Position numbers and translations under genes: made by a program | NCBI GenBank assembly: GCA_016290135.1 | Contig: JAEESW010000008.1 | Coordinates: 1-64,000, forward strand | DNA length: 64,000 nucleotides | Source of the DNA: a bacterium | GTDB lineage: Bacteria; UBP6; UBA1177 | Reading direction: 5' to 3' | Shown: positions 19,012-43,439 of the stretch, piece after piece | Position numbering within the stretch: position 1 is the first letter of the stretch | How the letters are laid out: the number at the start of each line of letters is the position of its first letter | Notes under the pieces: generated by a model | What the model was told of the DNA's origin: nothing | The model's input: only the letters and a program-made list of their open reading frames with translations | Databases searched by the model: none

Positions 19012-19050
19012 TGACACGGTGTCAATTTTGTTTATTCTGACGCGGTGACG
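19012..19050 (+). promoter_or_regulatory. TGACACGGTGTCA operator pair + promoter upstream of flavodoxin gene
   Basis: TGACACGGTGTCA (19012-19024) and TGACGCGGTGACG (19038-19050), 26 bp apart; TATTCT -10-like element between. Confidence 0.7.
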
Positions 19051-19104
19051 GTATGATCTTCATTTTAGAAATTTTAGGAGAAACAGATAAAAAGGAGAAA
19101 ACTT

Positions 19105-19842
19105 ATGTTCTCAAAAATGTGGAATGAAATTTCTGCGCACAAAGTGCGTTATTCAGTGATTTCAGCGGTTCTGGTGCTTGCAGTCGTGCTCTTTGCGCTT
19201 TTCGGAGTTTCCTACATCAGAAGGCACTTCCAGACTGTGAATATCGACCGTGAACAGGCGGCTCGTACCGAACAGATCGACATGAAAGGGAAAAAGGGGA
19301 TCATCGTTTACTTCACCAGAGTCGGAAACACCGATTTTGCAAAGGATGTCGATGCGGTATCCAGCGCCTCTTTAATGAATGACGGCGGAAAACTTGTGGG
19401 AAACAGTGAACTTTTGTCTAAAATGATCGCAAATGCCACGGGTTATCCGCTCTACGCGATAAAGACAAAAAACAAATACCCTTCAAGCTACGTCGACACC
19501 GTCATCGAAGCCACCAAAGAGTTCCAGGGAGAAAAGCCTGTTGAACTTGAAGGCGCCGCACCGGATCTTTCCGGTTATGACACGGTCATTCTGGTCTATC
19601 CGCTCTGGCACTGGACGCTTCCCGTTCCTGTGCAGAAATTCCTGACTGAAAATAAACTTGAAGGCAAGACCCTTTATTCTCTGGTAACGCACGGCGGCAG
19701 CGGTTTCGGAAACGCGATCAAGGATACCCCGAAATGGACCTCGGCAAAGGTAAGTCCTCTGACGCTTTCGGTATATGACGATGAGGTCACGGTCTCACTT
19801 CCTAAAGTTCTTGAATGGGTGAAAAAAATCGCTGACAATTGA
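19105..19842 (+). CDS. Membrane-anchored flavodoxin-like protein
   Basis: N-terminal TM helix; 'GIIVYFTRVGNT...YDTVILVYPLWHWTLPVPVQKFLTENKLEGKTLYSLVTHGGSGFG'. Confidence 0.85.
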   Translation: MFSKMWNEISAHKVRYSVISAVLVLAVVLFALFGVSYIRRHFQTVNIDREQAARTEQIDMKGKKGIIVYFTRVGNTDFAKDVDAVSSASLMNDGGKLVGNSELLSKMIANATGYPLYAIKTKNKYPSSYVDTVIEATKEFQGEKPVELEGAAPDLSGYDTVILVYPLWHWTLPVPVQKFLTENKLEGKTLYSLVTHGGSGFGNAIKDTPKWTSAKVSPLTLSVYDDEVTVSLPKVLEWVKKIADN

Positions 19843-19988
19843 ACCAAGAGAGCCGGCAGAAGGAGAGATTCGCAGGAATCCTTGCGCTTTTACGGCGAAA
19901 TCGCGGTGCTTGTCGCACAGAAGCGCGGCATCAAAAACAAGATCGCACTTCTCAAGCTTGAAGGATTTTGCGGTTTCCTGCATTAAAT

Positions 19989-20035
19989 TGACACGGTGTC
20001 AGTTTTCTTGTAATTACGATCCTGACACGATGCCG
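19989..20035 (+). promoter_or_regulatory. TGACAC-type operator pair upstream of fic
   Basis: TGACACGGTGTCA (19989-20001) and TGACACGATGCCG (20023-20035); TTGACA-N17-TAATTA promoter-like. Confidence 0.6.
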
Positions 20036-20051
20036 GCAAACTCTTGCAATA

Positions 20052-20103
20052 TTCCGATAATTACGTTAGTATCGTTCCGATAATTGTTTATTATTCCGAT
20101 AAT
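20052..20103 (+). repeat. Three direct repeats of TTCCGATAAT upstream of fic
   Basis: TTCCGATAAT at 20052-20061, 20075-20084, 20094-20103. Confidence 0.85.
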
Positions 20104-20115
20104 CGAGGTCGAAAG

Positions 20116-21030
20116 ATGAAAACTGACGGAACTTTTTTAACTGTTGCTCAGGCTGCAGGGAAATGGAATATATCTGAAAGACGCATCAGGGTCTTGTGTT
20201 CCGAAGGGAAGATCCCGGGTGCTGTGCAGCAGGGTCGCGGCTGGAAGATACCGCTTGATGCGATGAAGCCTTCAGACGGCAGGATAAAACGGACTGAAAA
20301 CCTGATCTCCGTGATTGACGAAAAAAAGCGGCTTTTGGACACGCTGCGCCCGTTTACGCAGGGAGAACTTGAACGCCTGAATGAAGAATTCGTCACGGAA
20401 TACACCTACAATTCCAATGCGATAGAGGGAAACACTCTTACTCTGCGAGAAACGGATATGGTTTTGCGCGGTCTCACAATCGACAAAAAGCCGCTTGCCC
20501 ACCATCTTGAAGCGATCGGTCATAAGGAAGCGTTTGATTATGTCGTTTCGCTTGTGCAGCAGAATGAGCCGCTTACGGAAAGAATCATCAAGGAGATCCA
20601 TTACTTAGTGCTGGCAGATAAAAAAGAGGACAGGGGTGTTTACCGCCGTATTCCCGTAAGCATAATGGGGGCGGCGCACGAGCCTGTTCAGCCTTATCTT
20701 ATCCAGCCTGAGATGGAAAAACTGCTTTCTGATTATGCTGAAGACAAAACTCATATCGTTTCCCGCCTTGCACGCTTTCACATTGAATTCGAGGCGATTC
20801 ATCCGTTCATAGACGGAAACGGCAGGACAGGCAGACTTCTTGTAAATTTGGAACTGATGAAGGCCGGATTTCCGCCAATCGACATAAAATTTGCCGACAG
20901 GGTTTCTTACTACAATGCGTTCGATGAATACCATGTCAGGCACGATCTCGGTGCTATGGAACAGCTTTTTGCGAGGGCGCTGAACGAGCGGCTCGATTTT
21001 TATATTTCTCTAAGGAAAGAAAATAACTGA
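20116..21030 (+). CDS. Fic-family protein with N-terminal HTH (class II-like inhibitory motif)
   Basis: 'FLTVAQAAGKWNISERRIRVLCSEGKIPGAVQQGRGWKIP' HTH; 'YNSNAIEGNTLTL' inhibitory-helix motif; 'HPFIDGNGRTGRLLVN' Fic motif; ATG at 20116 chosen over the TTG start in the ORF track. Confidence 0.93.
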   Translation: MKTDGTFLTVAQAAGKWNISERRIRVLCSEGKIPGAVQQGRGWKIPLDAMKPSDGRIKRTENLISVIDEKKRLLDTLRPFTQGELERLNEEFVTEYTYNSNAIEGNTLTLRETDMVLRGLTIDKKPLAHHLEAIGHKEAFDYVVSLVQQNEPLTERIIKEIHYLVLADKKEDRGVYRRIPVSIMGAAHEPVQPYLIQPEMEKLLSDYAEDKTHIVSRLARFHIEFEAIHPFIDGNGRTGRLLVNLELMKAGFPPIDIKFADRVSYYNAFDEYHVRHDLGAMEQLFARALNERLDFYISLRKENN

Positions 21031-21064
21031 CACGATGTCAAAATAAAAAATTGATACGGTGTCA
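21028..21064. promoter_or_regulatory. TGACAC-type palindrome pair in a convergent intergenic gap
   Basis: TGACACGATGTCA (21028-21040) and TGATACGGTGTCA (21052-21064), between fic (+) and rrf2 (-) 3' ends. Confidence 0.7.
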
Positions 21065-21071
21065 GTATAAA

Positions 21072-21494
21072 TCACTTAACCTGTTCAACCAGATCTGCAA
21101 TGGTTGTTTTGGAAAGTTCTGTTTCAAGCGCATTCTGGGCATTGTGCAGAACGGGGTCAAGGACTGTGTGGATGTTTTTTCCTATCGGGCATTCTGGATT
21201 GGGGGAGGGATGAAAGTTAAAAACTTCCTGTCCGCACTCGGTATCATTTATTGCATGATAAACGTCAAGCAGACTGATTTTGTCGGGGTTTTTCGCCAGA
21301 TGTGATCCGCCGACACCGGCTGTTGTCTCGATCAGCCCTGCGTGTTGGAGCTGAAGCAGGATTTTTCTGATTATGACCGCATTGACTCCGGTGCTTCCGG
21401 CAATGAAATCGGATGTTACGCGGTAATCGTTTTCAAAATACATGATGCACAGAAGTGTGTGCACCGCCGCAGTGAAACGGACTGTGATTTTCAT
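21072..21494 (-). CDS. Rrf2-family transcriptional regulator
   Basis: 'MKITVRFTAAVHTLLCIMYFENDYRVTSDFIAGSTGVNAVIIRKILLQLQHAGLIETTAGVGGSHLAKNPDKISLLDVYHAI'. Confidence 0.9.
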   Translation of the reverse strand: MKITVRFTAAVHTLLCIMYFENDYRVTSDFIAGSTGVNAVIIRKILLQLQHAGLIETTAGVGGSHLAKNPDKISLLDVYHAINDTECGQEVFNFHPSPNPECPIGKNIHTVLDPVLHNAQNALETELSKTTIADLVEQVK

Positions 21495-21532
21495 TGATCC
21501 CCTTCTTAAGCAAATCAGTAAAAGGCAGAACA

Positions 21533-22411
21533 TTAAAGTATTCTGCCGAACCCTATGTTTTTACCAGAGAAATTCGTTTTTGTATATAAAAAAACATCGC
21601 CGATATCGCCGTTGATACATAGTGATCTGTTTGAAATTTCCGACGGAACGACCGCTTCCCCGAAGTTTACGCAGACATAGAAAGCGTTTTTGTTGAGCGT
21701 GGTCATGCGCCAGAACGGATATTTGATGATCATAGGAGTGTTTCCGCCGACTCCGAGTTCGAGGAAGAGGACTTTCCCGTCTTTCGTGGCATTTCTTGAA
21801 ACAAGAAAATTTTTGTATCTTTCTGACGCCGCGTACCAGCCTTCATCCTGCACGAAAGTGTTGTCGGAACGAAGATTCATGCTCATCGGCTTTCCGCATT
21901 TAGGGCAGTGAGGAACAAGTTTGGACGGGATTTTCATATCGCGCTGCTCTTCAAACATAAGCCTGATTTCCGCTTCGTTGTCGTAAGTCTCCTGATGACA
22001 CGGCTCGCTGCACTGGAACAAACCATAATCTCCCTGCATGTAATAAAGGCGCGATTTGTCGAATCCAGCTTTCTGAAAACAATGGTCGACATTCGTAGTT
22101 ATGACAAAATAATCCTTATCTTTCACAAGAGAAAGCAGATTTTTGTACACAGGTTTCGGGGCATCCATGTAGCGGTTTATCATAATGTAGCGGCTCCAGT
22201 ATGCCCAGAACTCCTCATAACTCGGAAACGGGTAAAAACCGCCTGAATACATATCGGTAAAGCCGTATTTCTTAACAAAATCGGGGAAGTATTTTTCAAG
22301 CCTTTCCCCTGAATAGGTCAATCCTGCCGAAGTCGAAAGTCCGGCACCTGCTCCGATGATGATAGTGTCGTTTTCTGCAAGTACCGATTTCAGTTTTTCA
22401 ATCTCTTCCAT
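21533..22411 (-). CDS. SIR2-family protein resembling M-class (SirTM) protein-ADP-ribosylating sirtuins
   Basis: 'IIGAGAGLSTSAGLTYSG', 'VITTNVDHCFQKAGF', 'YMQGDYGLFQCSEPCH' (Gln at the usual HG catalytic His), 'CPKCGKPM' Zn site; adjacent to macrodomain gene. Confidence 0.85.
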   Translation of the reverse strand: MEEIEKLKSVLAENDTIIIGAGAGLSTSAGLTYSGERLEKYFPDFVKKYGFTDMYSGGFYPFPSYEEFWAYWSRYIMINRYMDAPKPVYKNLLSLVKDKDYFVITTNVDHCFQKAGFDKSRLYYMQGDYGLFQCSEPCHQETYDNEAEIRLMFEEQRDMKIPSKLVPHCPKCGKPMSMNLRSDNTFVQDEGWYAASERYKNFLVSRNATKDGKVLFLELGVGGNTPMIIKYPFWRMTTLNKNAFYVCVNFGEAVVPSEISNRSLCINGDIGDVFLYTKTNFSGKNIGFGRIL

Positions 22412-23180
22412 AGAGAATTCTCCTGTAAATTACCTCATCTTTTTCAGAAAAGACGTTGAATACGATTTTCATTCCGTCTCCGCTCTGTTCTTTCCATTTG
22501 CGCACGGTGTCAACGGCAATTTCCGCCGCCCTGTCGGCAGGAAAGCGGAATACGCCGGTTGAGATACAGCAGAATGCGATAGAAACACAGCCGTTTGCTT
22601 TCGCAATATCAAGGCAGCTTTTGTAGCAGGAAGCGAGCAGATCGCGGTCAGTTGCGGTAAGTTCTCCTCTGACGATAGGGCCCACGGTATGGATCACGTA
22701 TTTGCTCGGGAGATTGAATGCAGGCGTGATTTTTGCCTGACCTGCAGGCTCTTCGTGTCCCTGTTTTTGCATGATATCCGCACACACAGCACGAAGCTGG
22801 ATCCCTGCAAATGTATGTATGCAGTTATCGATGCACAAATGGCACGGCTGCCAGCAACCGGTCATTCCGCTGTTAGCCGCATTCACGATGGCGTCCACTT
22901 TGAGAGTCGTTATATCGCCGCGCCACAAATAAAGTTCGTTGTCGGCAGAGTGCAGATCCGCAATATCCGTGATTACGTGCGAGCGGTTTTCTTCCTGAAG
23001 ATATTCATCTTGTATTTTCAAAAATTCATCGCTTGCGGGAAGCGGCGGCCTGACATTCACTAAAGAGCGTAAAAGATCTTTCTGCTCATCATCAGTCTGC
23101 GGAATTTCAATCTCTTCATACTGCGGATTTTCTTTAAGAAGATATTTTATCAGAAATTCTCTTCGTTCTCTTTGTGTCAT
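22398..23180 (-). CDS. Zinc-type macrodomain protein (predicted ADP-ribosyl hydrolase)
   Basis: 'LYLWRGDITTLKVDAIVNAANSGMTGCWQPCHLCIDNCIHTFAGIQLRAVC', 'YVIHTVGPIV', 'SIAFCCISTGVFRFPADRAAEIAV'; 14-bp overlap with sirtuin gene. Confidence 0.93.
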   Translation of the reverse strand: MTQRERREFLIKYLLKENPQYEEIEIPQTDDEQKDLLRSLVNVRPPLPASDEFLKIQDEYLQEENRSHVITDIADLHSADNELYLWRGDITTLKVDAIVNAANSGMTGCWQPCHLCIDNCIHTFAGIQLRAVCADIMQKQGHEEPAGQAKITPAFNLPSKYVIHTVGPIVRGELTATDRDLLASCYKSCLDIAKANGCVSIAFCCISTGVFRFPADRAAEIAVDTVRKWKEQSGDGMKIVFNVFSEKDEVIYRRILYGRD

Positions 23181-23196
23181 GCCGCCCTCCAAAAAA

Positions 23197-23826
23197 CTAT
23201 TCCCTTACAAGAGAAATTCTCTTCTGTATATTATTTCCTTTTGTGATTTCTTCAATAAGTGCAGCAGCGTAGTCGGCATAGCTGATGATGCTTTCGCCTT
23301 TCGAGTTGAGAGTGAGTTCCTCTCCGCCCCAGATCCATTTTCCTGTTTTAGGTGCTTCAGCCTGAAAGTCTCCGGCAGGGCTGATGTATGTCCATTTGAC
23401 ATCGTTTCTCTTTCTCAAATCTGCCAGAGCAGCCGCCATTGCACATGCAAGCGGTTTGAAGATGTCTGGAAAATCCGGAGTTTCGGAAACGGTCATGGTG
23501 TGTTCCTTGTTTACATAAAGGCTTCCTGCGCCGCCTACAACGACAAGGCGTGTTTCGGTTCCGGAAAGCAGATCGCAAAGGTGAGAAAGCGATTTTCCGT
23601 GGTTCGGAAGCTCGGCTTCTACCCATGCGCCGAAAGCGTCAACGACAGCATCGAAACCGGCGAGATCATTTTTTGTGAGCGCGAAAATGTCCTTCTGAAC
23701 AAAATTTTTTGCCGCGCTTTTGTTCTCCTCGCGGGCGAATCCCGTAACATCCATACCTGCCGCAAGTGCTTCCGCGACAACAAGTTTTCCGACTTTTCCG
23801 TTCGAGCAAATAACTGCAACTTTCAT
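23197..23826 (-). CDS. NAD(P)-binding NmrA/SDR-like oxidoreductase
   Basis: 'MKVAVICSNGKVGKLVVAEALAAGMDVTGFAREENKS', 'LVVVGGAGSLYV', 'WTYISPAGDFQAEAPKTGKW'. Confidence 0.85.
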   Translation of the reverse strand: MKVAVICSNGKVGKLVVAEALAAGMDVTGFAREENKSAAKNFVQKDIFALTKNDLAGFDAVVDAFGAWVEAELPNHGKSLSHLCDLLSGTETRLVVVGGAGSLYVNKEHTMTVSETPDFPDIFKPLACAMAAALADLRKRNDVKWTYISPAGDFQAEAPKTGKWIWGGEELTLNSKGESIISYADYAAALIEEITKGNNIQKRISLVRE

Positions 23827-23861
23827 AATTTCCTCCATTCAAAAATTAAAAAAAACTTCGG

Positions 23862-23881
23862 CAAAGAATCGTTGTTCTTTG
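23862..23881. promoter_or_regulatory. Inverted repeat CAAAGAA-N6-TTCTTTG, candidate Rrf2 operator
   Basis: CAAAGAATCGTTGTTCTTTG; lies just downstream of the predicted minus-strand -10. Confidence 0.55.
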
Positions 23882-23898
23882 TCAATTACAACTGTGCA

Positions 23899-23926
23899 AA
23901 TATAAACGCTTTTGATGTAATGTCAA
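23899..23926 (-). promoter_or_regulatory. Predicted sigma70-type promoter for the SirTM-macrodomain operon
   Basis: Minus strand TTGACA (23921-23926) -N16- TATATT (23899-23904). Confidence 0.6.
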
Positions 23927-24060
23927 TAGAACATCGTTGTTTTCTTTGATGTTTTTTCAAATATTGCTGAAATTGTTAAAGAAAAACTATCCGGAAGATC
24001 TTTCACATTTGTTCAAGATGACGATTTGCTGGCGTGCTGTCCGTCTTCCTGTAAAAAAAC

Positions 24061-24123
24061 TGACACGGTGTCAAAATACAAAATTGACACAGTGTCATTT
24101 TTATTTATTCTGACGCTGTGACG
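24061..24123 (+). promoter_or_regulatory. Triple TGACAC-type operator + promoter upstream of Fe-ADH
   Basis: TGACACGGTGTCA (24061), TGACACAGTGTCA (24085), TGACGCTGTGACG (24111); TTGACA-N16-TATTCT between second and third. Confidence 0.75.
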
Positions 24124-24157
24124 TGATAATGTTCGTTTTAACTAAAAGGAGGCTTTT

Positions 24158-25324
24158 ATGAACGGAAACTTTGTTTATTCAAACCCTACAAGGCTTTATT
24201 TCGGTGACAAATCCCTTAATTTCCTGAAAGACGAGCTTGCCAAATACGGCAGAAAAATCATGCTGAGCTACGGCGGCGGTTCTATCAAAAAGAACGGGAT
24301 CTACGACGCTGTCATGGAAATTCTCAAAAGTTCAGGCAAGGAGGTTTTCGAGGATCCCGGCGTTATGCCGAATCCGACTGTTGAAAAACTGCTCGAAGGG
24401 TGCAGGATCGCCCGTGAAAACGATGTCGATTTCATTCTTGCGGTAGGCGGCGGCTCTGTTGTTGACTATGCGAAAGGCGTTGCTGTATCGGCCTGGTATG
24501 ACGGCGATCCGTGGGAAAAATACTATCTCAAAATGGAAGATCCGGCAAACAGGATCCTTCCTCTGGGATGCGTTCTTACGATGGTCGGAACAGGAAGCGA
24601 AATGAACGGTGGATCGGTTATCACGAACCATGAGCAGAAACTCAAAATCGGCCATGTTTTCGGCGAGGAACTCTACCCGAAATTCGCGATTTTAAATCCG
24701 AAATACACTTTTTCGATCCCGAAAAGGCAGATGATCGCTGGATTTTTCGACATCATGTCGCACATAATGGAGCAGTATTTCTCTGGCGACGACGACAACA
24801 CTTCCGACTATATCGCCGAAGGTCTCATGCGCTCGCTCATCCACTCCTCGCGCATCGCTGTCAAAAATCCTGAGGATTACGAGGCGAGAAGCAACATCAT
24901 GTGGATCGCGACATGGGCACTCAACACCCTCATCGGAAAAGGAAAACCGCAGGACTGGATGGTCCATATGATCGGTCAGTCGATCGGAGCGTTCACCGAT
25001 GCGACCCACGGAATGACTCTTTCGGGCGTATCGCTTCCTTACTACCGCGTTTCCATGAAAGATGCGCCGTGGAAATTCGCCCGTTTCGCAAAAAATGTCT
25101 GGGACGTTGACTGCACAGGCAAAAGCGAGGAGAAAATCGCGGAAGAAGGACTTCAGGCGATGGAAAACTGGATGAAGGAACTCGGTCTCTGCCTTCATAT
25201 TGCGGAACTCGGCGTTACGGAAGAGATGTTTGAAGGGATCGCGAAAGGGACTTTCCTCATCAATTCAGGCTATCACAAGTTCACGAAAGATGAAATCGTT
25301 CAGATTTTGAAAGAGAGTATGTAA
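24158..25324 (+). CDS. Iron-containing alcohol dehydrogenase (YqhD/BdhA-like)
   Basis: 'FVYSNPTRLYFGDKSLNFL', 'ILAVGGGSVVDYAKGVAVSA', 'LTMVGTGSEMNGGSVITN', 'GFFDIMSHIMEQYF', 'DATHGMTLSGVSLPYY'. Confidence 0.93.
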   Translation: MNGNFVYSNPTRLYFGDKSLNFLKDELAKYGRKIMLSYGGGSIKKNGIYDAVMEILKSSGKEVFEDPGVMPNPTVEKLLEGCRIARENDVDFILAVGGGSVVDYAKGVAVSAWYDGDPWEKYYLKMEDPANRILPLGCVLTMVGTGSEMNGGSVITNHEQKLKIGHVFGEELYPKFAILNPKYTFSIPKRQMIAGFFDIMSHIMEQYFSGDDDNTSDYIAEGLMRSLIHSSRIAVKNPEDYEARSNIMWIATWALNTLIGKGKPQDWMVHMIGQSIGAFTDATHGMTLSGVSLPYYRVSMKDAPWKFARFAKNVWDVDCTGKSEEKIAEEGLQAMENWMKELGLCLHIAELGVTEEMFEGIAKGTFLINSGYHKFTKDEIVQILKESM

Positions 25325-25489
25325 TAAATCGGAATGATAAGTGACACAAAGTCAGAATAATGTTCGCAACTGATTTTCCCATTAAACCAACAAAGTCTTT
25401 GTAATTTTTCTCCAAAAACCTTGCCATTTTTTGCCCTTTCTTTATTATACTTTGCGTTGATTTTATGCACCTTTCATTTCGAGGATTCC

Positions 25490-26878: not shown

Positions 26879-26933
26879 AACTATAATTATGACAAACCAA
26901 TGCGGAATATTGAGGACACGTTAGAATACAAGA

Positions 26934-31564: not shown

Positions 31565-31603
31565 TGACACGGTGTCATTTTTATTTATTCTGACACGGTG
31601 TCG
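31565..31603 (+). promoter_or_regulatory. TGACAC operator pair + TTGACA-N16-TATTCT promoter
   Basis: TGACACGGTGTCA (31565-31577) and TGACACGGTGTCG (31591-31603). Confidence 0.78.
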
Positions 31604-31630: not shown

Positions 31631-32134
31631 ATGAAAAAGATTGTAACTTTTGTTTTGGTGTTGTTCATGCTTTTCGTGACATCGTGCGGAGTTGAAGCCG
31701 CTGATTCCGAGAAATCGTCTGAATACCAGAATGGTCAGAATTCCCAATCTGAAACGGAGGCTGCTATGAAAATTTCAATCACAATAAACGGAAAGGACAA
31801 ACTATCCGCGACACTTTCGGACAACTCATCCTCCAAAGCTTTTTATGAATTGCTGAAAAAGGGCGAAGTCACTGTTAAAATGCATGATTACGGCAACTTC
31901 GAGAAGGTCGGTGACTTACCGCAGTCTCTGCCGCGCAATGATACACAGATTACGACTAAACCGGGCGATATAATTCTTTATCAAGGTAATCAGATTACGA
32001 TTTACTACGATACAAACAGCTGGAATTTTACTCTTCTCGGCAGAATCGAAGGCAAAACGCAGCAGGAACTTAAAACGATTTTGGGCGAAGGTGACGTGAC
32101 GGCAGTATTTGCGGTTGCTGTGGCAGAAAAATAA
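31631..32134 (+). CDS. Cyclophilin-like-fold lipoprotein
   Basis: Lipobox 'LFVTSCG'; 'MKISITINGKDKLSATLSDNSSSKAFYELL...YGNFEKVGDLPQSLPRNDTQITTKPGDIILYQGNQITIYY' cyclophilin-like fold. Confidence 0.8.
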   Translation: MKKIVTFVLVLFMLFVTSCGVEAADSEKSSEYQNGQNSQSETEAAMKISITINGKDKLSATLSDNSSSKAFYELLKKGEVTVKMHDYGNFEKVGDLPQSLPRNDTQITTKPGDIILYQGNQITIYYDTNSWNFTLLGRIEGKTQQELKTILGEGDVTAVFAVAVAEK

Positions 32135-32135
32135 T

Positions 32136-32148
32136 TGACTCGGTGTCA
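32136..32148 (+). promoter_or_regulatory. TGACTCGGTGTCA operator-like site
   Basis: 12/13 match to island consensus, directly after the stop codon of the preceding gene. Confidence 0.55.
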
Positions 32149-32184
32149 AAATAAGTTCGTTTAATTTAAGGTATGGTGTTAACG

Positions 32185-33600
32185 ATGAAAAGAATAAAAA
32201 CAGTTGTAAATATTCTGATGACACTGCTTCTGATGGTCGTGATGGCTTATCACTATACCGGTCCGATGTGGCATGAAATAACGGGAACGGCTATGTTCGT
32301 CCTTTTTATCGTCCACAATGCACTGAATTACAGGTGGTACAAGTCGCTTGCAAAAGGCCGGTACAATGCGGCGCGGGTCTTCATGCTGGTCACTAACTGT
32401 CTGCTTATTGCCGATATCCTGCTGCTCATGCTTTCGGGAATAAGCATGTCTTTCTATGTTTTCAAATTTCTTCCCGATTCCGTTTCGATCCCTTCGGCGA
32501 GAAGCATCCATTTGATCGCATCTTATGCAGGATTTCTTCTGATAAGTTTCCACATCGGCCTGCATATACGTGGTGTGTTTGGGAAAATATGTAATAAAAT
32601 CAAGCTGTTTTCTGAAAAACAAAAGGGACTCGGCTTTATCCGGGTTTTGTTCGTTTTGTCGGTTGCTGCGGCGTGTTTCTACGGGGTATATGCTCTGAAG
32701 GAGAGAAATTTCTGGGGATATATTTCAGGCAGCTCGATGTTCGCTTTTTTTGATTATGAGGAGCTGCCGCTCTGGTTTTTCCTCGATTATGCAGCGATCA
32801 TGTTTCTTTTTGTTATGTCTGCGTTTTTATTGCAGAAACTGTTTGCGATCGGATTGAAAACAATAGCAGGAAACGCGGTCCGGAACATCACGGAACACAA
32901 AATGCGCTATTCAGTTATTTCTGGAATTCTGGTGCTTGTTGCAGTGCTTTTTGCGATTTTTGGAGTTTCTTATATCAGAAGGCATTTCCAGCCGGTGAAT
33001 GTAGACCGCGCCGAGGCGACTCGTACTGAAAGGATAGACATGAAAGGAAAGAAAGGGATCATCGTTTACTTCACAAGAGTAGGGAACACAGCCTTTGCGG
33101 ACGATGTCGATGCCGTTTCAAGCGCATCTCTTATGACCGACGGTGCAAATCTCGTCGGAAACAGCGAACTTCTCTCTGAAATGTTAGCAAATGCAACAGG
33201 TTATCCTGTATACGCAATAAAAACGAAAGACAAATACTCATCAAGCTATTCCGGCACAGTCAGCGAAGCAGGGCAGGAGTTCAGAGGGGAAAGAAGTGTC
33301 GAACTGGAGAACGATGTGCCCGAACTTTTGGAATATGACACCGTTATTCTGGTCTATCCGCTCTGGTGGTGGACGCTTCCGATGCCTGTGCAGAAATTTC
33401 TGACTGAAAACAAACTTGAGGGCAAAACACTTTATTCTTTGGTCACTCACGGCGGCAGCGGCTTCGGCTCAGCCATTCAGGATACTGCAAAATTTACTGC
33501 GGCGAAGGTCAGTCCCGATGCACTAGCAGTCTATGACGACGAAGTTACGGGAGCACTGCCTAAAGTCATCTCCTGGCTTGAAAAAATTGCGAATAACTGA
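32185..33600 (+). CDS. DUF4405-like multi-TM domain fused to flavodoxin domain
   Basis: N-terminal helices 'GTAMFVLFIVHNALNYRWYKSL...', 'ARSIHLIASYAGFLLISFHIGLHIRG'; C-terminal flavodoxin nearly identical to 19105-19842 product. Confidence 0.85.
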   Translation: MKRIKTVVNILMTLLLMVVMAYHYTGPMWHEITGTAMFVLFIVHNALNYRWYKSLAKGRYNAARVFMLVTNCLLIADILLLMLSGISMSFYVFKFLPDSVSIPSARSIHLIASYAGFLLISFHIGLHIRGVFGKICNKIKLFSEKQKGLGFIRVLFVLSVAAACFYGVYALKERNFWGYISGSSMFAFFDYEELPLWFFLDYAAIMFLFVMSAFLLQKLFAIGLKTIAGNAVRNITEHKMRYSVISGILVLVAVLFAIFGVSYIRRHFQPVNVDRAEATRTERIDMKGKKGIIVYFTRVGNTAFADDVDAVSSASLMTDGANLVGNSELLSEMLANATGYPVYAIKTKDKYSSSYSGTVSEAGQEFRGERSVELENDVPELLEYDTVILVYPLWWWTLPMPVQKFLTENKLEGKTLYSLVTHGGSGFGSAIQDTAKFTAAKVSPDALAVYDDEVTGALPKVISWLEKIANN

Positions 33601-33610
33601 CACGATGTCG
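33598..33610 (+). promoter_or_regulatory. TGACACGATGTCG operator-like site
   Basis: Overlaps stop codon of upstream gene and precedes dinB remnant. Confidence 0.5.
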
Positions 33611-33624: not shown

Positions 33625-34018
33625 GTGCAGCAGCGCAAGATCATTCATGTCGATATGGACGCCTTTTTCGTTTCAGTGGAGGAGCACGATAATCCCGATC
33701 TGAAAGGGCATCCTGTGGTAGTCGGGCATGACGGCCCGCGCGGAGTGGTCGCAACTGCAAACTATACGGCTCGCAAATTCGGGATCCATTCGGCGCTCCC
33801 TGGTTTTGAAGATCAAATACAGTGATTTCAGGCAGACGACACACTGCCGCAGCTGTAATAAGCCGATCGAGACTTTTGAGGAGATCTTTTCCATTACTCG
33901 TGAGCTGCTTGATGAAGTCGACGTGCGGCATCCGGTGAGACTTCTGGGGCTATCTGTCACCAATCCTGTTCAAACTGAAGATCCAGGTTTTCCGCAGCAG
34001 ATGACCTTTGACTGGTAA
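33625..34018 (+). pseudogene. dinB: DNA polymerase IV remnant (internal deletion + frameshift)
   Basis: N-terminus '[55 protein letters not shown]' joined near 33800-33806 to C-terminal '[12 protein letters not shown]...HPVRLLGLSVTN' in another frame; catalytic core missing. Confidence 0.88.
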
Positions 34019-34052: not shown

Positions 34053-34089
34053 TGACACGATGTCAAAATAAAAAATTGACACGGTGTCA
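34053..34089 (+). promoter_or_regulatory. TGACAC operator pair upstream of tetR
   Basis: TGACACGATGTCA (34053-34065), TGACACGGTGTCA (34077-34089). Confidence 0.75.
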
Positions 34090-34146: not shown

Positions 34147-34159
34147 TGACTGAAAGTCA
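34147..34159. promoter_or_regulatory. Palindrome TGACTGAAAGTCA upstream of tetR
   Basis: TGACT-GAA-AGTCA, same TGAC-N5-GTCA frame as island sites; 49 bp before tetR ATG. Confidence 0.6.
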
Positions 34160-34207
34160 TTGACTTTGAGTATGAATTTGTTATTGTCTTCGGCGGAGGT
34201 GGCTGAT

Positions 34208-34810
34208 ATGACTAAAAGACAGGAACAGGCTTTGAAAACAAAGGAAAAAATTTTGAAGGAAGCGGCGAAAATGGTGGCGGAGAACGGCGTGGACAATCTT
34301 AATGTCGATGCTCTGACGGAACGCTGTGAGGTCGCAAAGGGGACTTTCTACACTTATTTCAAACATAAGGAAGACATCGTTTTTGAGATCTGCCGTGATC
34401 TGTTTGCGCAGATAGAAGAGCGTATGCAGCAGATGACCGGTAAAAACATCGTTGAAAAACTTTCCTATTACTTCGACGAGTTCATGAAGGAGGTCGAAAG
34501 ATACGGTGTCAACATTACAAGAGCATGGATCAGGGGTGTTATCGATCCGAAAAATGCTCCGGAAAACTTTGACAGCAAAAAATGGCAGTACGATGTCGAA
34601 ATGCTTGAAAACATTTTGAAAAACGCTGTCAAAGACAAGGAATTGAAGAAGAATACTCCGGTGGAACTGCTGACACACATCATTATTTCACAGCTCTACG
34701 GCATGATGACGGTGTGGTGCATGTCCGACTGCGAGTTTGAACCGAAGGAATGGACAAAAAAGTTCTGCGATGTCCAGCTGAAAGCTATTCTTGAAAAATA
34801 TTTGGTTTAA
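34208..34810 (+). CDS. TetR/AcrR-family transcriptional regulator
   Basis: 'TKEKILKEAAKMVAENGVDNLNVDALTERCEVAKGTFYTYFKHKEDIV' TetR_N HTH. Confidence 0.95.
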   Translation: MTKRQEQALKTKEKILKEAAKMVAENGVDNLNVDALTERCEVAKGTFYTYFKHKEDIVFEICRDLFAQIEERMQQMTGKNIVEKLSYYFDEFMKEVERYGVNITRAWIRGVIDPKNAPENFDSKKWQYDVEMLENILKNAVKDKELKKNTPVELLTHIIISQLYGMMTVWCMSDCEFEPKEWTKKFCDVQLKAILEKYLV

Positions 34811-34822
34811 AAGGAGAAAATC

Positions 34823-35665: not shown

Positions 35666-35686
35666 TTTAAAATAGAGGAAATTAAG

Positions 35687-36322
35687 ATGGGAAGGATCAT
35701 TTTTACGATTTTTGCAGTTGTTGTATTAGGCATCTGCCTTACTTTATCGGCTAAAAACACAAATACGGAGAAAAAAACAATGGAAAACACCAACAAAAAC
35801 CGCAAGGTTCTCGTCGCATACTTTTCGAGGACAGGCGAGCAGTACTCAGTCGGCAACATCACCGAGGGAAACACCGCGATAATCGCGAAAATGATAGCTG
35901 TGAAAACGGGCGGCGACCTTTTTGAGATCAAGGTGGCAAAAGACAATTACCCGAAAGGTTACACCGCGCTCACCGAGTATGCGAAAGAGGAAAAACAGAA
36001 GAAGGCGAGACCTGAGATCGTCGGAAAAGTGGCGAAATTCGCGGACTACGACACTGTTTTCATCGGCTATCCGAACTGGTGGAGCGACATGCCGATGCCG
36101 GTATATACATTTTTGGAAAGCTATGATTTTACTAACAAAAACGTCGTTCCGTTCTGTACCCACGAGGGAAGCGGAATGAGCGGAACCGAAAACAACGTCA
36201 AAAATGCAGCTAAAGGCGGAAAGGCTCTGAAAGGTTTCTCGATATACGGCCACACCGCGCAGAACGAAAGGGCGGAAGCCGAGAAAAAAGTTTCGCAGTG
36301 GCTGAAAGAAATAGGGTTTTAA
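35687..36322 (+). CDS. Flavodoxin with N-terminal signal/TM leader
   Basis: 'RKVLVAYFSRTGEQYSVGNITEGNTAIIAKMIAVKTGGDLFEI', 'FIGYPNWWSDMPMPVYTFLE', 'THEGSGMSGTENNV'. Confidence 0.92.
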   Translation: MGRIIFTIFAVVVLGICLTLSAKNTNTEKKTMENTNKNRKVLVAYFSRTGEQYSVGNITEGNTAIIAKMIAVKTGGDLFEIKVAKDNYPKGYTALTEYAKEEKQKKARPEIVGKVAKFADYDTVFIGYPNWWSDMPMPVYTFLESYDFTNKNVVPFCTHEGSGMSGTENNVKNAAKGGKALKGFSIYGHTAQNERAEAEKKVSQWLKEIGF

Positions 36323-36361
36323 TTGACCAAGCTTGGAAAACAACGATTTAAGGAGGTTTTC

Positions 36362-37375: not shown

Positions 37376-37384
37376 TAAAAAACC

Positions 37385-37454
37385 TGACACGGTGTCAAAA
37401 TAAAAATTGATACGGTGTCAACTTTCGAGTAGTTTCACTGCAGGCATGGTGTCA
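37385..37454 (+). promoter_or_regulatory. TGACAC operator cluster (two strong, one degenerate)
   Basis: TGACACGGTGTCA (37385), TGATACGGTGTCA (37408), AGGCATGGTGTCA (37442). Confidence 0.7.
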
Positions 37455-37493
37455 GCACAGAGTGCTCTTTAGAATTTAATTAGGAGATTAGTC

Positions 37494-38135
37494 ATGAAAG
37501 TATTGCTTTTCAACGGCTCGCCGCACAAAAACGGCTGCACATTCACAGCTTTGGAAGAGATAGCGAAAACATTGAAGGAAGAGGGGATCGATTCCGAGAT
37601 ATATCAGATCGGAACGGGTGCGATCACCCCGTGCAAAGGCTGCGGAGCGTGCGCGAAACTCGGCAGATGCGTAACTACTGACGACGGCGTAAACGATTTT
37701 GTCGACTATCTCGGCAAAGGATTCGACGGTTACATTTTCGGCTCTCCTGTCCACTACGCTTCGGCCTGCGGCGGGATCACGGCCTTTTTGGATAAGGCTT
37801 TCTTTGTCGCTTTTGCTTCAGGACGAGGAAATCTTTTGAAACATAAACCTGCTGCTGCTGTAGCGAGCGCAAGACGTTCCGGAACAACAGCTACTTTAGA
37901 TCAGCTCAACAAGTATATGACTATATCTGAAATGCCGATAATTTCGGGAAGATACTGGAATATGGTCCACGGTCACACTCCGGATGAAGTGAGACAGGAT
38001 CTCGAAGGAATGCAGAATATGAGGATCCTGGCGAGGAACATGGCGTGGCATCTTAAATGCCGCGAGGCAGCTGAAAAGGCGGGAGTCCAGCTTCCGAAAG
38101 AAGAAGAGATCGTCTTTACGAATTTCATAAGATAA
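37494..38135 (+). CDS. NADPH-dependent FMN reductase-family protein
   Basis: 'MKVLLFNGSPHKNGCTFTALEEIAKTLKEEGIDSEIYQIGTGAITPCKGCGACAKLGRCVTTDDG', 'GYIFGSPVHYASACGG'. Confidence 0.92.
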   Translation: MKVLLFNGSPHKNGCTFTALEEIAKTLKEEGIDSEIYQIGTGAITPCKGCGACAKLGRCVTTDDGVNDFVDYLGKGFDGYIFGSPVHYASACGGITAFLDKAFFVAFASGRGNLLKHKPAAAVASARRSGTTATLDQLNKYMTISEMPIISGRYWNMVHGHTPDEVRQDLEGMQNMRILARNMAWHLKCREAAEKAGVQLPKEEEIVFTNFIR

Positions 38136-38151
38136 ACGGTGATCTTGGCTA

Positions 38152-39234
38152 ATGATATTTAAGAAAAAACGAATGATTGTTGTTTCGATCCTATTTTCCA
38201 TCCTGCTTGTTTCAGGGCTTGCAGGCGTGCTCTTTTTGAATCAGCCGAGTTTCGGGCGCATTCCGCAGGGAAAGCGGCTCGAGCGCGTCAAGCAGTCGGC
38301 TCATTACGACGGAAGAGAGTTTGTAAACGAAGAAAAAACGGTCACCATGACTGGAGACCGCGGTTTTTTGGAGGTCTGGCGCGATTTTCTCTTCGGCGAC
38401 AAGTCGAAAACGGTGCCAAGTGAACCGATGAAAGTCATCAAAACCGATCTGAAGTCGCTTCCCGGTGAGCGTGACTGGATCGTCTGGTTCGGTCATTCCT
38501 CGTATCTGATGAACCTTTCCGGCAAAAAAGTGCTCGTAGACCCGATATTTTACAAGGCGTCTCCTGTGAGTTTCGTGAACAAAATGTTCGACGGAACTGA
38601 TGTCTACAAGCCTGACGACATGCCCGACATCGATTTTTTGGTGATAACGCACGACCACTGGGATCATCTTGACTATCAGGCGGTGAAGGAACTTGAGCCG
38701 CGTGTGAAAAAAGTCGTGACCGCTCTCGGTGTCGGCGAACACTTCGAATACTGGGGATATCCGGCGGAAAAACTAACTGAACTCGACTGGCGGGAGTCTG
38801 CCGATTTTGGAGACGGATTCAGCGTTACCGCGACTCCGGCACGCCATTTTTCGGGGCGGGATCTGCACCGCAACAAGACTTTGTGGGCATCATTCATCTT
38901 TTTTTCTCCGAAGCGGACTGTCTGGATCGGCGGAGATTCCGGCTACGGCAGACACTTTGCCGAAATAGGCGAGAAATTCAAAAATATAGATCTCGCCATC
39001 CTCGAAAACGGCCAGTACAACAAGGACTGGTCGCAGATCCACACTCTTCCTGAATTCCTGGCAAAAGAGATGACTGAGCTCGGTGCAGCCCGCTACATGA
39101 CAGTGCACCACTCACGCTTCTGCCTCAGCAGCCACGACTACAAAGAACCTCTTGAAAACGCCAGACGCGCCGCAGCGGAATCAGGAAAAGATGTTCTGAT
39201 TCCGCAGATGGGCGAAGTGAGTTATCTGGAATAA
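38152..39234 (+). CDS. MBL-fold metallohydrolase, NAPE-PLD/UlaG-like, membrane-anchored
   Basis: N-terminal TM; 'DWIVWFGHSSYLMNLSGKKVLVDPIF', 'DIDFLVITHDHWDHLDYQAVKEL', 'VWIGGDSGYGRHF'. Confidence 0.92.
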   Translation: MIFKKKRMIVVSILFSILLVSGLAGVLFLNQPSFGRIPQGKRLERVKQSAHYDGREFVNEEKTVTMTGDRGFLEVWRDFLFGDKSKTVPSEPMKVIKTDLKSLPGERDWIVWFGHSSYLMNLSGKKVLVDPIFYKASPVSFVNKMFDGTDVYKPDDMPDIDFLVITHDHWDHLDYQAVKELEPRVKKVVTALGVGEHFEYWGYPAEKLTELDWRESADFGDGFSVTATPARHFSGRDLHRNKTLWASFIFFSPKRTVWIGGDSGYGRHFAEIGEKFKNIDLAILENGQYNKDWSQIHTLPEFLAKEMTELGAARYMTVHHSRFCLSSHDYKEPLENARRAAAESGKDVLIPQMGEVSYLE

Positions 39235-39237
39235 AAC

Positions 39238-39250
39238 TGACACGGTGTCA
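39238..39250 (+). promoter_or_regulatory. TGACACGGTGTCA operator site
   Basis: Perfect consensus site between CDS ending 39234 and CDS starting 39283. Confidence 0.65.
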
Positions 39251-39282
39251 GGATGATCGTTCTATGAAAAAAGGAGTCAAAC

Positions 39283-40131
39283 ATGAAAAAGATTTTCATC
39301 GCATTTTTGGCACTTGCTCTGTGTAGCATCTGCCTCAATTTATCGGCTAAACCTTCAAACACGGAGAAAAAAACAATGACAAAAGTAGTTCAGACTGCGG
39401 GGCGTGACAACCTCGGCACTTTCGCGCCGGAATTCGCCCATTTCAACGACGACGTTCTCTTCGGCGAGAACTGGAACAATCAAGACATTTCACTTAAAAC
39501 GAGGAGCATAATCACCGTTGTCGCACTTATGTCGCAGGGTATAACCGATTCTTCTCTGAAATACCATCTCCAGAACGCGAAAAACAATGGTGTCACGAAG
39601 GAAGAGATTGCGGCGGTCATAACCCATACTGCTTTTTACGCAGGCTGGCCCAAGGCGTGGGCGACATTCAACCTCGCAAAAGAGGTCTGGAACGAAAAAA
39701 CTCCGGCTTTGACCGAAAAGGATAAGTACGCACAGACGATAATGTTCCCTATCGGTGCCCCGAATACGGCTTATGCGAAGTATTTCATCGGACAGAGCTA
39801 TCTTTCTCCGGTTTCTACCAGCCAGGTGAAGATTTTCAACGTCACTTTCGAGCCGAAATGCCGCAACAACTGGCACATCCACCACGCGAAAACGGGCGGC
39901 GGACAGATGCTTATCGCGGTCGGCGGCAGAGGATTTTATCAGGAATGGGGCAAAAAACCTGTCGAAATGAAGCCTGGAGACGTCATCAACATTCCGGCAA
40001 ATGTCAAACACTGGCACGGAGCGGCTCCCGACAGCTGGTTCTCGCATCTCGCCATCGAAATTGACGGTATGGAAACCTCGAACGAATGGCTAGAACCTGT
40101 AAATGATGCGGAATACGGGAAACTGAAATAA
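39283..40131 (+). CDS. Carboxymuconolactone decarboxylase-like + cupin domain protein with signal leader
   Basis: 'LSLKTRSIITVVALMSQG...LKYHLQNAKNNGVTKEEIAAVITHTAFYAGWPKAWATF' CMD; 'NNWHIHHAKTGGGQMLIAVGGRGFYQEWGKKPVEMKPGDVINIPANVKHWHGA' cupin. Confidence 0.9.
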   Translation: MKKIFIAFLALALCSICLNLSAKPSNTEKKTMTKVVQTAGRDNLGTFAPEFAHFNDDVLFGENWNNQDISLKTRSIITVVALMSQGITDSSLKYHLQNAKNNGVTKEEIAAVITHTAFYAGWPKAWATFNLAKEVWNEKTPALTEKDKYAQTIMFPIGAPNTAYAKYFIGQSYLSPVSTSQVKIFNVTFEPKCRNNWHIHHAKTGGGQMLIAVGGRGFYQEWGKKPVEMKPGDVINIPANVKHWHGAAPDSWFSHLAIEIDGMETSNEWLEPVNDAEYGKLK

Positions 40132-40143
40132 AAGGAGGCTTAA

Positions 40144-41238
40144 ATGAAAAAAATTCTCATTGTTTTCGCGGTTTTAGTGTTTGCGCTGATCTCATGCGGC
40201 GACAAACAGGAAACGAAACAGGAAAATGCGGAAGAAACCAATGCGGCTCTGCAGCCGTTAAATGAAAAGGAGAAAGCTGTGAAAAAAGAGGAACATTACA
40301 CATTCAAGCTCGCGGAAGGCGTGGTACGCACGAAAGTCCGCTTCAAAAACCACTTCGGAATAGAGATTGTCGGTGATCTTTACACTCCGGCGAATGCAGC
40401 ACCTTCAGGAAATGCGGCGATAGCGGTGAGTGGTCCTTTCGGCGCGGTAAAAGAGCAGTCGAGCGGTCTTTATGCCAACGAAATGGCGAAAAGAGGCTTT
40501 ATCGCGCTCGCTTTCGACCCTTCGTTTACAGGTGAAAGCGCAGGAGAGCCGCGTTACATGAACAGCCCAGACATCAATACCGAGGATTTCATGGCAGCAG
40601 TCGATTTCCTCTCTACTCGTGACAATATCGACCCTGAAAAAATCGGCATTATCGGCATCTGCGGCTGGGGCGGAATGGCTCTGAATACTGCCGCGATCGA
40701 TACGAGGATCAAGGCGACTGTTGCAAGCACGATGTACGACATGAGCCGAGTTGTCGCAAACGGATATAACGATAGCGCGGATTCTGCCGATGCAAGGAAT
40801 GAAGCGCGAAAGGCATTGATGGCACAGAGAATCGAAGACTTCAAAAACGGGAGCTACAAACTTGCCGGAGGCGTCATTGATCCGCTTCCCGAAGACGCTC
40901 CGCAGTTCGTGAAAGATTACTACGCTTACTACAAAACTCCGCGCGGCTACCACGAACGCTCGCTCAATTCAAACGGCGGCTGGAACATTACGGCGGCGAC
41001 TTCGCTTCTCAACACGAAACTTCTAGCCTATGCCGATGAGATCAGAAGTTCAGTCCTTGTGATCCACGGCGAAAACGCCCACAGCAGATACTTCGGCGAG
41101 ACCGCATTCAAAAAACTCAAAGGCGACAACAAGGAACTGATGATAATTCCCGGCGCGAACCACGTCGATCTTTACGACAACCTTGAAAAGATCCCGTTCG
41201 GAAAGCTGGACGAGTTTTTCAGAAAGAATCTGAAATAG
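40144..41238 (+). CDS. Alpha/beta hydrolase (dienelactone-hydrolase-like) lipoprotein
   Basis: Lipobox 'FALISCGD'; 'VRFKNHFGIEIVGDLYTP', 'IGIIGICGWGGMALNTAAID', 'GANHVDLYD'. Confidence 0.88.
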   Translation: MKKILIVFAVLVFALISCGDKQETKQENAEETNAALQPLNEKEKAVKKEEHYTFKLAEGVVRTKVRFKNHFGIEIVGDLYTPANAAPSGNAAIAVSGPFGAVKEQSSGLYANEMAKRGFIALAFDPSFTGESAGEPRYMNSPDINTEDFMAAVDFLSTRDNIDPEKIGIIGICGWGGMALNTAAIDTRIKATVASTMYDMSRVVANGYNDSADSADARNEARKALMAQRIEDFKNGSYKLAGGVIDPLPEDAPQFVKDYYAYYKTPRGYHERSLNSNGGWNITAATSLLNTKLLAYADEIRSSVLVIHGENAHSRYFGETAFKKLKGDNKELMIIPGANHVDLYDNLEKIPFGKLDEFFRKNLK

Positions 41239-41262
41239 ATAAAAGTAAAAACAGGAGAAAAC

Positions 41263-41799
41263 ATGAAAAAAGTATTGATTTTATCGGGAAGTCCGCGAAA
41301 GGGCGGCAACTCTGACACGCTCTGTGACGAATTCATGCGCGGAGCGAGGGAAGCTGGAAACGAAGTCGAGAAGATCAGAGTCAGCGAGAAGAAGATCGGC
41401 TACTGCACAGGTTGCTACTACTGCCAGAAATCGGGCGGAGTATGTGCGATCAAGGACGATATGAATGAAATCCTTCAGAAAATGATCGATGCCGATGTCA
41501 TCGTGCTAGCAAGCCCTGTATATTTCTACTCGATCGACGCTCAGCTCAAAGCCGTGATCGACAGAACAGTCGCACGCTGGCTTGAAGTCAAAAACAAAGA
41601 ATTTTACTACATCGCAACTTCCGCAGACGAAAAACGCGAATCGCAGGAACGCACGATCGAGTGCTTCCGCGGATATGCCGACTGTGTCGAAGGCGCGGTC
41701 GAAAAGGGTGTCATCTATGCGACAGGTGTCTACCAGATAGGTGAAATCAAAAACAGCCCTGCACTGAAAGAAGCCTATGAAACGGGGCTGAAGGTGTAA
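41263..41799 (+). CDS. NADPH-dependent FMN reductase/flavodoxin-family protein
   Basis: 'KKVLILSGSPRKGGNSDTLCDEFMRGAREAGNEVEKIRVSEKKIGYCTGCYYCQKSGGVCAIKDDMNEIL', 'LASPVYFYSIDAQLKAVIDR'. Confidence 0.95.
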   Translation: MKKVLILSGSPRKGGNSDTLCDEFMRGAREAGNEVEKIRVSEKKIGYCTGCYYCQKSGGVCAIKDDMNEILQKMIDADVIVLASPVYFYSIDAQLKAVIDRTVARWLEVKNKEFYYIATSADEKRESQERTIECFRGYADCVEGAVEKGVIYATGVYQIGEIKNSPALKEAYETGLKV

Positions 41800-41802
41800 A
41801 AT

Positions 41803-41815
41803 TTACACTGTGTCA
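41803..41815 (+). promoter_or_regulatory. Degenerate TGACAC-type site TTACACTGTGTCA
   Basis: 11/13 match to consensus, just after the previous stop codon. Confidence 0.4.
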
Positions 41816-41886
41816 AGATAAGTTTATTCCTTGCAATTTTTATGCCGGAACAGGATCGGTGTCGGAACACGGCAGAAAATATTTTA

Positions 41887-41900
41887 TTGACATATGTCAA
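41887..41900. promoter_or_regulatory. Perfect palindrome TTGACATATGTCAA
   Basis: 14-bp perfect palindrome 32 bp before ATG of the DUF134-type gene. Confidence 0.6.
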
Positions 41901-41931
41901 AAACCAGCTACCTTTTCGCGGGAGGTTCACG

Positions 41932-42657
41932 ATGTCAAGACCCGCAAGATGCCGCAGAATTGAGAAATCACCGCTTTTCAGGAGCTTTTCTCCGGATGAT
42001 GTCGAGACGGCGGAAAGTGTCTTCATGACTGTGGATGAATTCGAGGCGATGCGCCTTCTGGATGATGAAGGGCTTACGCAGGAAGCGTGCGCTTTGAAGA
42101 TGAATGTCGCCAGGACTACGGTCACTGCGATCTATGAAAGTGCGCGGCGCAAAGTTGCCGATGCCCTTGTCCGCGGAAAACGCCTTCTGATCGTGGGCGG
42201 ATGTTGTGAATTTGCTCCCGTGGAACTGCCTGACAATATTATGGAGAAGAAGATGGAACACAAAAGAATTGCGGTAACTTATGAAAACGGCGAGGTTTTT
42301 CAGCATTTCGGACACACTGAAAACTTCAAATTCTACGATGTCGAAAACGGCGCGGTCGTCAAAGAACAGATCGTTTCTACGAACGGAAGCGGCCACGGCG
42401 CACTTGCCGGATTTTTGAAGGCAGCTCAGGTCGATGCTCTGATCTGCGGCGGAATAGGCGGCGGCGCGAGGATGGCTCTTGACGAAGCAGGGATCGCTCT
42501 CTATCCCGGTGTAAAAGGATCTGCCGACGAAGCTGCTAAAGCTCTTGCGGCCGGAAAACTTGAATACGATCCCGATTCTCACTGCACTCACCACGAACAC
42601 CATGACCATCACGAAGGCGGCTGCGGCGAACACAGCTGCGGAACTCACCACTGCTGA
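41932..42657 (+). CDS. DUF134 HTH domain fused to dinitrogenase iron-molybdenum cofactor (NifX/NafY-like) domain with His/Cys-rich tail
   Basis: 'MSRPARCRRIEKSPLFRSFSP...MTVDEFEAMRLLDDEGLTQEACALKMNVARTTVTAIYESARRKVADALVRGKRLLI'; 'IAVTYENGEVFQHFGHTENFKFYDVE...GGIGGGARMALDEAGI'; tail 'HCTHHEHHDHHEGGCGEHSCGTHHC'. Confidence 0.93.
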   Translation: MSRPARCRRIEKSPLFRSFSPDDVETAESVFMTVDEFEAMRLLDDEGLTQEACALKMNVARTTVTAIYESARRKVADALVRGKRLLIVGGCCEFAPVELPDNIMEKKMEHKRIAVTYENGEVFQHFGHTENFKFYDVENGAVVKEQIVSTNGSGHGALAGFLKAAQVDALICGGIGGGARMALDEAGIALYPGVKGSADEAAKALAAGKLEYDPDSHCTHHEHHDHHEGGCGEHSCGTHHC

Positions 42658-42688
42658 TTACAGCAAAAGTAAAAATACGGAGGATTTC

Positions 42689-43375
42689 ATGAAAGAAGAG
42701 TGTCTGGTTTGTAAAAAACCTCTCGAATATCTTGAAAGCGATGTCCTCATGGAGTGCGCGATTTGTCATAAGAAGGAAAACAGCAAAACCCGTTGTGTCG
42801 CGGGGCATTATGTCTGCAATCAGTGCCATACAGCAGGAATGGACAGCATCATAGGTCTGTGTCTGAATGAAACATCAAAAGATCCTATAAAGATCCTTGA
42901 TAAGATGATGGCTCTTCCGATCTGCCACATGCACGGCCCTGAGCATCATGTTATGGTGGGCGCAGCACTTTTGACGGCTTATAAAAACGCAGGCGGTTCT
43001 GTTGATTTTGAAGCTGCGCTGACAGAAATGGTAAGTAGAGGTAAAAAAGTCCCCAGTGGAGCGTGCGGATTCTGGGGTGCGTGCGGTGCAGGCATCAGTT
43101 CAGGAATGTTTGTCGCCATAATTTCCAGATCCACGCCTCTGGCGCAGGAACCGTTTGCCCTTGCACATCGTATGACCGCAAAATCGCTTGGAGCTATCGG
43201 CGAGATCGGCGGTCCGCGCTGCTGCAAGCGTGATTCTTACCTCTCCGTTTTGTCAGCTATTGATTTTATAAGAGATAACTTCGGTGTCGAAATGGAAAAA
43301 CATGAGATTGTCTGCACGCATTCCGCTCAAAACAATCAGTGTATCGGAAAACGATGCCCGTTTGCAAGAAAATAA
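42689..43375 (+). CDS. DUF5714-like Cys-rich protein
   Basis: 'CLVCKKPLEYLESDVLMECAICHKKENSKTRCVAGHYVCNQCH', 'VPSGACGFWGACGAGISSGMFVAII', 'GGPRCCKRDSYL'. Confidence 0.75.
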   Translation: MKEECLVCKKPLEYLESDVLMECAICHKKENSKTRCVAGHYVCNQCHTAGMDSIIGLCLNETSKDPIKILDKMMALPICHMHGPEHHVMVGAALLTAYKNAGGSVDFEAALTEMVSRGKKVPSGACGFWGACGAGISSGMFVAIISRSTPLAQEPFALAHRMTAKSLGAIGEIGGPRCCKRDSYLSVLSAIDFIRDNFGVEMEKHEIVCTHSAQNNQCIGKRCPFARK

Positions 43376-43376
43376 C

Positions 43377-43439
43377 TGACACGATGTCAAAATAAAAAAT
43401 TGACACAGTGTCATTTTTATTTATTCTGACGCCGTGCCG
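43377..43439 (+). promoter_or_regulatory. Triple TGACAC-type operator + TTGACA-N16-TATTCT promoter
   Basis: TGACACGATGTCA (43377), TGACACAGTGTCA (43401), TGACGCCGTGCCG (43427). Confidence 0.75.

Follow-up and report, generated by a model that had tools for sequence, protein, structure and literature searches.

NemR, a TetR-family repressor of Escherichia coli, controls enzymes that detoxify electrophiles. In the same species YqhC is described as upregulating yqhD-dkgA with aldehydes (PMC6115493), and in mycobacteria KstR is described as one TetR repressor set over many operons (PMC1995591). We analyzed a stretch of 64,000 nucleotides (the window; contig JAEESW010000008.1 of assembly GCA_016290135.1, positions 1 to 64,000) from a bacterium of a rumen-associated genus, in which a preliminary description had noticed an island of redox genes with a recurrent 13-letter palindrome, TGACACNGTGTCA, in the gaps between them. 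Very probably, a TetR-family protein encoded off the window, TetR2, has this palindrome as its operator; it would repress the island as well as a regulon beyond the window and would be induced, most likely, by an electrophile or aldehyde.

The palindrome and its probable regulator

A scan of the window located nine exact copies of TGACACNGTGTCA, which has a 1-nt centre, and 17 copies at one mismatch or fewer, spanning 19012 to 43413. Three more copies at two mismatches are at 25342, 33598 and 34499, the last of them inside a tetR coding sequence, and degenerate third copies occur at 19038, 20023, 24111, 37442 and 43427. By chance, 0.004 exact copies would be expected per 64 kb, and 179 permutations of the half-site gave a mean of 0.13 one-mismatch hits in the window (maximum 2) and at most one exact hit. 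Every coordinate listed in the preliminary description carries the palindrome or a near copy, the pairs and triplets that it reported at spacings of 23–26 bp are real, and its shared promoter block, TTGACACRGTGTCATTTTTATTTATTCTGACRC, is found unaltered at 24084, 31564 and 43400, with a variant at 19011. Its view that the set is local needs correction: no copy with two or fewer mismatches occurs in the window other than at 19.0–43.4 kb, but the set reaches well past the window, the genome (2.47 Mb) having 26 exact places, on contigs C9, C11, C29, C57 and C66, where 0.14 would be expected and the reversed control gives none. These genome-wide counts came from pattern searches rather than from a position weight matrix, and further clusters of sites are present on C29, C57, C9 and C11. 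A few further hits, one at C11:17614 and others, at one mismatch, on C1, C24 and C64, appear to fall inside predicted genes or at their edges and could be due to chance.

The candidate regulator is encoded on contig C57:

C57, 31509 to 32132 (locus L002, 11510 to 12136), plus strand: TetR2, off the window, the likely regulator

The strongest evidence for TetR2 is a putative operator footprint that crosses phyla. In genomes of the Genome Taxonomy Database (GTDB) scanned with a TetR2 profile, full-length relatives at ~50–60% identity were found nearly exclusively in gut Bacillota (Clostridia and Negativicutes), with one in Synergistota. Around the Bacillota homologues there were 42 exact palindromes in 1.09 Mb, compared to a mean of 0.05 for permuted versions. 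The preliminary description had proposed looking for the same sites near orthologous clusters, and they were present there as well as in congeners: at 40 of the 75 Bacillota loci, the 400 bp 5' of tetR2 hold a site with no more than one mismatch, compared to none for each of 15 control palindromes. The neighbors at these loci recall the gene inventory of the window and include aldo/keto reductase (AKR, 29/64), CMD (24/64), FMN reductase (16/64), flavodoxin (16/64) and DUF362 (9/64) genes, in addition to amidohydrolase-ABM and iron-dependent alcohol dehydrogenase (Fe-ADH) genes. The module can be plasmid-borne, since TetR2, flavodoxin, amidohydrolase and AKR genes are found together with four near sites on the Selenomonas plasmid pSRC1.

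Within the genus, TetR2 orthologues were identified in 13 of the 15 genomes, and a 14th (G002) has a C-terminal fragment; none was found in the 46 genomes searched beyond the genus, among them 13 that belong to its family, order and phylum. Exact sites were present in 13 of the 15 genomes, this one included, and those 13 outer relatives yielded none. The presence of TetR2 and that of exact sites were associated across the 61 genomes (11/2/3/45, Fisher p = 6e-8, uncorrected for kinship). Two exact sites in G056, from another phylum, are probably chance occurrences, since the one inspected is inside a long open frame and TetR2 was not found in that genome. TetR2 is directly behind a triple operator in this genome (G000), G003 and G008, three diverged species whose proteins are only 58–60% identical. 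In most other congeners it is downstream of a DUF362 gene, near site-bearing Lar genes, and in G007, G013 and G014 it shares a contig with the island, within ~30 kb.

TetR2 matches the N-terminal TetR helix-turn-helix model PF00440 at 29.8 bits (cut-off 24) and the C-terminal model PF17929, TetR_C_34, at 35.5 (cut-off 26.3). Its AlphaFold2 model (pLDDT 92.8) has the all-helical TetR fold, and the best PDB match of the predicted structure is 2zcx (SCO7815), with a template modelling (TM) score of 0.81 and 20% identity. A palindromic operator at the regulator's own promoter is common, though not universal, in the TetR family, and judging by sequence TetR2 has one in G000, G003 and G008 in addition to the 40 Bacillota loci. 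Cys20 is invariant and Cys140 is 91% conserved across 87 homologues, which we regard as a lead for thiol sensing only. The operator assignment and the regulator assignment are both strongly supported.

Other explanations for the sites

The preliminary description had favored a different TetR protein, encoded in the island itself, which we refer to as TetR1.

34208 to 34810, plus strand: TetR1, probably a regulated target rather than the master regulator
34147 to 34159: distinct palindrome TGACTGAAAGTCA, probable own operator of TetR1; two overlapping copies in G009

The gene for TetR1 is in the cluster, behind two operators, and G009 has TetR1 yet no detectable TetR2. Conversely, TetR1 was found in only 3 of 15 congeners whereas sites occur in 13, and TGACACNGTGTCA accompanies TetR2 homologues in other phyla. 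Moreover, the immediate promoter of TetR1 bears a different palindrome, TGACTNNNAGTCA, in tandem (34147–34175), which is kept in all three genomes and is doubled and overlapping in G009; this probably represents a second, nested regulatory circuit. We consequently rejected TetR1 as the master regulator and consider it improbable that it reads TGACACNGTGTCA. Even less probable is that the reader is another regulator of the island, such as Rrf2 (21072), DUF134/NifX (41932) or HTH_3 (43736). All three are within the island, and DUF134/NifX has a site upstream in both G000 and G004, but none of them would explain the palindrome 5' of tetR2 in Bacillota, where Rrf2 and DUF134 labels are rare or absent (Rrf2 at 1 of 64 loci).

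A mobile or repetitive extragenic palindromic (REP)-like repeat, spread without regulatory function, would account for blocks of ~60 bp that are near-identical at several promoters and for one site pair that lies between convergent genes. A terminator or REP element is excluded, and a DNA site for a dimer favored, because a 1-nt centre cannot make a hairpin loop. The preliminary description had named random scatter or REP-like repeats as what would speak against it, and neither was seen: in the loci of the genus, 134 sites are intergenic and 15 coding, genomes with sites are almost only those with TetR2, and the Bacillota share the core palindrome only, with different flanks and spacing. The repeat was thus rejected, and we give it only a very slight chance. 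TGACACNGTGTCA is best read as a DNA operator.

Some observations weigh against TetR2 as the regulator or against parts of its proposed role. G009 has 10 exact and ~30 near sites, with TetR1 present, and TetR2 was not found there, the DUF362 gene being followed by an FMN reductase gene; however, absence of TetR2 is not proven, because this genome is a 140-contig draft in which the island contigs end inside the island. G005 and G010, both 72–77% complete, lack exact sites despite having TetR2. Some sites are off promoters, namely the pair at 21028/21052 and single sites between genes. Lastly, it is from gene content only that the sensing of electrophiles is proposed.

Operators and genes of the regulon

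Genes in the loci were called with a simple open reading frame script. The operators of the window, all putative, and the genes that they accompany are as follows.

19012 to 19050: operator pair, TGACACGGTGTCA and degenerate TGACGCGGTGACG, upstream of the flavodoxin gene at 19105
19989 to 20035: operator pair upstream of the Fic/HTH_17 gene; a Fic-upstream site is also in G006, G009 and G013
21028 to 21064: operator pair between the convergent Fic and Rrf2 genes
24061 to 24123: triple operator/promoter upstream of Fe-ADH, with O1, O2 on the -35 and O3 after the -10
31565 to 31603: operator pair with the -35/-10 block, upstream of the cyclophilin-like gene at 31631
32136 to 32148: single operator between the cyclophilin-like and DUF4405-flavodoxin genes
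33598 to 33610: operator with two mismatches, 5' of a truncated copy of the DNA polymerase IV gene
34053 to 34089: operator pair upstream of the tetR1-AKR-flavodoxin-AKR operon
37385 to 37454: operators upstream of the NADPH-dependent FMN reductase gene
39238 to 39250: operator upstream of the CMD-cupin gene; also in G006 and G009
41803 to 41815: operator with one mismatch, upstream of the DUF134/NifX-like gene; also in G004
43377 to 43439: triple operator/promoter upstream of the HTH_3/GCAxxG genes
19105 to 44603, plus strand: predicted regulated gene set, comprising flavodoxins, Fic, Fe-ADH, cyclophilin-like, AKRs, FMN reductases, MBL, CMD-cupin, dienelactone-hydrolase-like, DUF134, DUF5714 and GCAxxG

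The genes beside the sites are mainly flavin/NAD(P)H oxidoreductases, in agreement with the preliminary description. The triple operator of Fe-ADH recurs in G007, G013 and G014, and the best NCBIfam match of this protein is PRK15138 (YqhD), below the model cut-off. The pair at 21028/21052 may be a rearrangement relic in this genome, since in G013 this block is found ahead of a flavodoxin_4 gene.

Off the window, sites precede the dienelactone-hydrolase-like, amidohydrolase-ABM, FMN reductase, flavodoxin, MBL-rubredoxin, DNA polymerase IV, MGMT and TetR2 genes on C57, and Lar nickel-pincer, methyltransferase and cation effluxer genes on C29. Among the loci fetched, the site was kept at MBL-rubredoxin and at LarE in five of six genomes each, and at Fe-ADH, Fic and one flavodoxin in four of four. 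The LarE/LarB/LarC nickel-pincer cofactor genes bear the operator in several species (L001 on C29, and L063, L065, L066 and L068 in congeners).

A number of additional features were apparent in these regions. The truncated DNA polymerase IV copy (33626–34018) is 76% identical to the intact C57 copy over the matched part, and an operator is just 5' of both. Recent paralogues in the regulon include a flavodoxin pair (19105–19842 and 32173–33600, 76% identical) and a dienelactone-hydrolase-like pair (40144–41238 and L002:4608–5708, 84% identical). The HTH_3 gene (43491–44143) is in two overlapping frames, apparently split, which could reflect a frameshift or a pseudogene. On the minus strand, 21072–23838 holds consecutive genes for an NAD(P)-binding protein, macrodomain, Sir2 and Rrf2, resembling macrodomain-sirtuin (SirTM) operons; no copy of TGACACNGTGTCA with two or fewer mismatches is close to the start of the first gene of this row, the nearest being the Fe-ADH triple operator at 24061. 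TTCCGATAAT occurs three times at 20051–20103, upstream of the Fic/HTH_17 gene, and these are perhaps sites of another regulator. An even-length palindrome, TTGACATATGTCAA, is at 41900–41913, upstream of the DUF134/NifX gene, and is unlike the main operator.

Proposed mechanism and relation to known systems

In the genus, the commonest promoter is TTGACA-N16-TATTCT and the commonest site spacings are 23–24 and 26 bp. In the usual Bacillota layout, a site contains the -35 TTGACA, a TATAAT-like box comes 17 bp later, and 36 bp downstream of the first site there is another. The claim of the preliminary description that the sites are operators of one regulator, located on promoters, is supported by the sequence evidence. 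We propose that a TetR2 dimer would bind one or more copies of TGACACNGTGTCA per promoter; with the central copy holding the -35 box and another just past the -10, this geometry suggests repression by occlusion of RNA polymerase. TetR2 would repress its own promoter in addition to ~22 other intergenic site clusters, and its targets would be flavodoxins, FMN reductases, aldo/keto and Fe-dependent alcohol reductases, CMD and MBL proteins, two DNA repair enzymes (Pol IV and MGMT), the Lar genes, a cation effluxer and TetR1. As this set combines aldehyde/keto reductases, flavodoxin and FMN reductases and CMD with Pol IV and MGMT, a reactive electrophile or aldehyde appears the most likely inducer, and the palindromes are best viewed as switch sites of a stress/detoxification gene network.

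Exact sites number 0–3 per genome in 20 TetR2-bearing Bacillota genomes versus 26 here, and it is therefore likely that the regulon expanded in this genus, a change whose direction and mechanism we infer. The tree separates the genus clade from the Bacillota clade with full support and, being midpoint-rooted, does not show which of the two was the donor in a transfer between them. A regulator–operator–enzyme module common to gut Bacillota, and local there, would have had its operator spread to many promoters in the genus. Tentatively, and with somewhat less than even confidence, we suggest that a horizontally mobile TetR repressor of local reach came to regulate a whole island in one rumen genus as its operator multiplied; this operator has its own -35 box, so each copied block would have created a repressible promoter in a single step.

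In the openly searchable literature only unrelated papers were found, with no description of the operator and nothing matching a TetR with flavodoxin/AKR/CMD regulons. Our results provide a candidate operator, regulator and conserved targets for a TetR family common in gut Bacillota, as well as a clear case of regulon expansion, and one purified protein and one 13-bp site would suffice to test an anaerobe detoxification regulon.

Of the known systems, SCO7815 is the closest solved fold to TetR2 and is compared by fold alone. The NemR regulon is similar in its TetR repressor, palindromic operator and reductase targets, and a NemR chain (4yze) is among the PDB matches of the TetR2 profile. Nevertheless, the two proteins are not alike at full length, as only the DNA-binding domain aligns (residues 8–80 with 4yze) and the C-terminal domains differ; the NemR operator also differs from TGACACNGTGTCA. 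YqhC, which is an AraC-type activator, shares with the proposed TetR2 regulon an Fe-ADH (here YqhD-like, below cut-off) and AKR targets, but the system here has a TetR repressor with many operators; because no AraC domain was found in the window genes scanned (16.7–44.6 kb) and the sites would belong to a TetR, this is not a YqhC-type regulon. KstR acts in lipid degradation, and its sequence and operator are unrelated to those of TetR2, but the likeness to such large regulons is that a single TetR repressor would control many operons.

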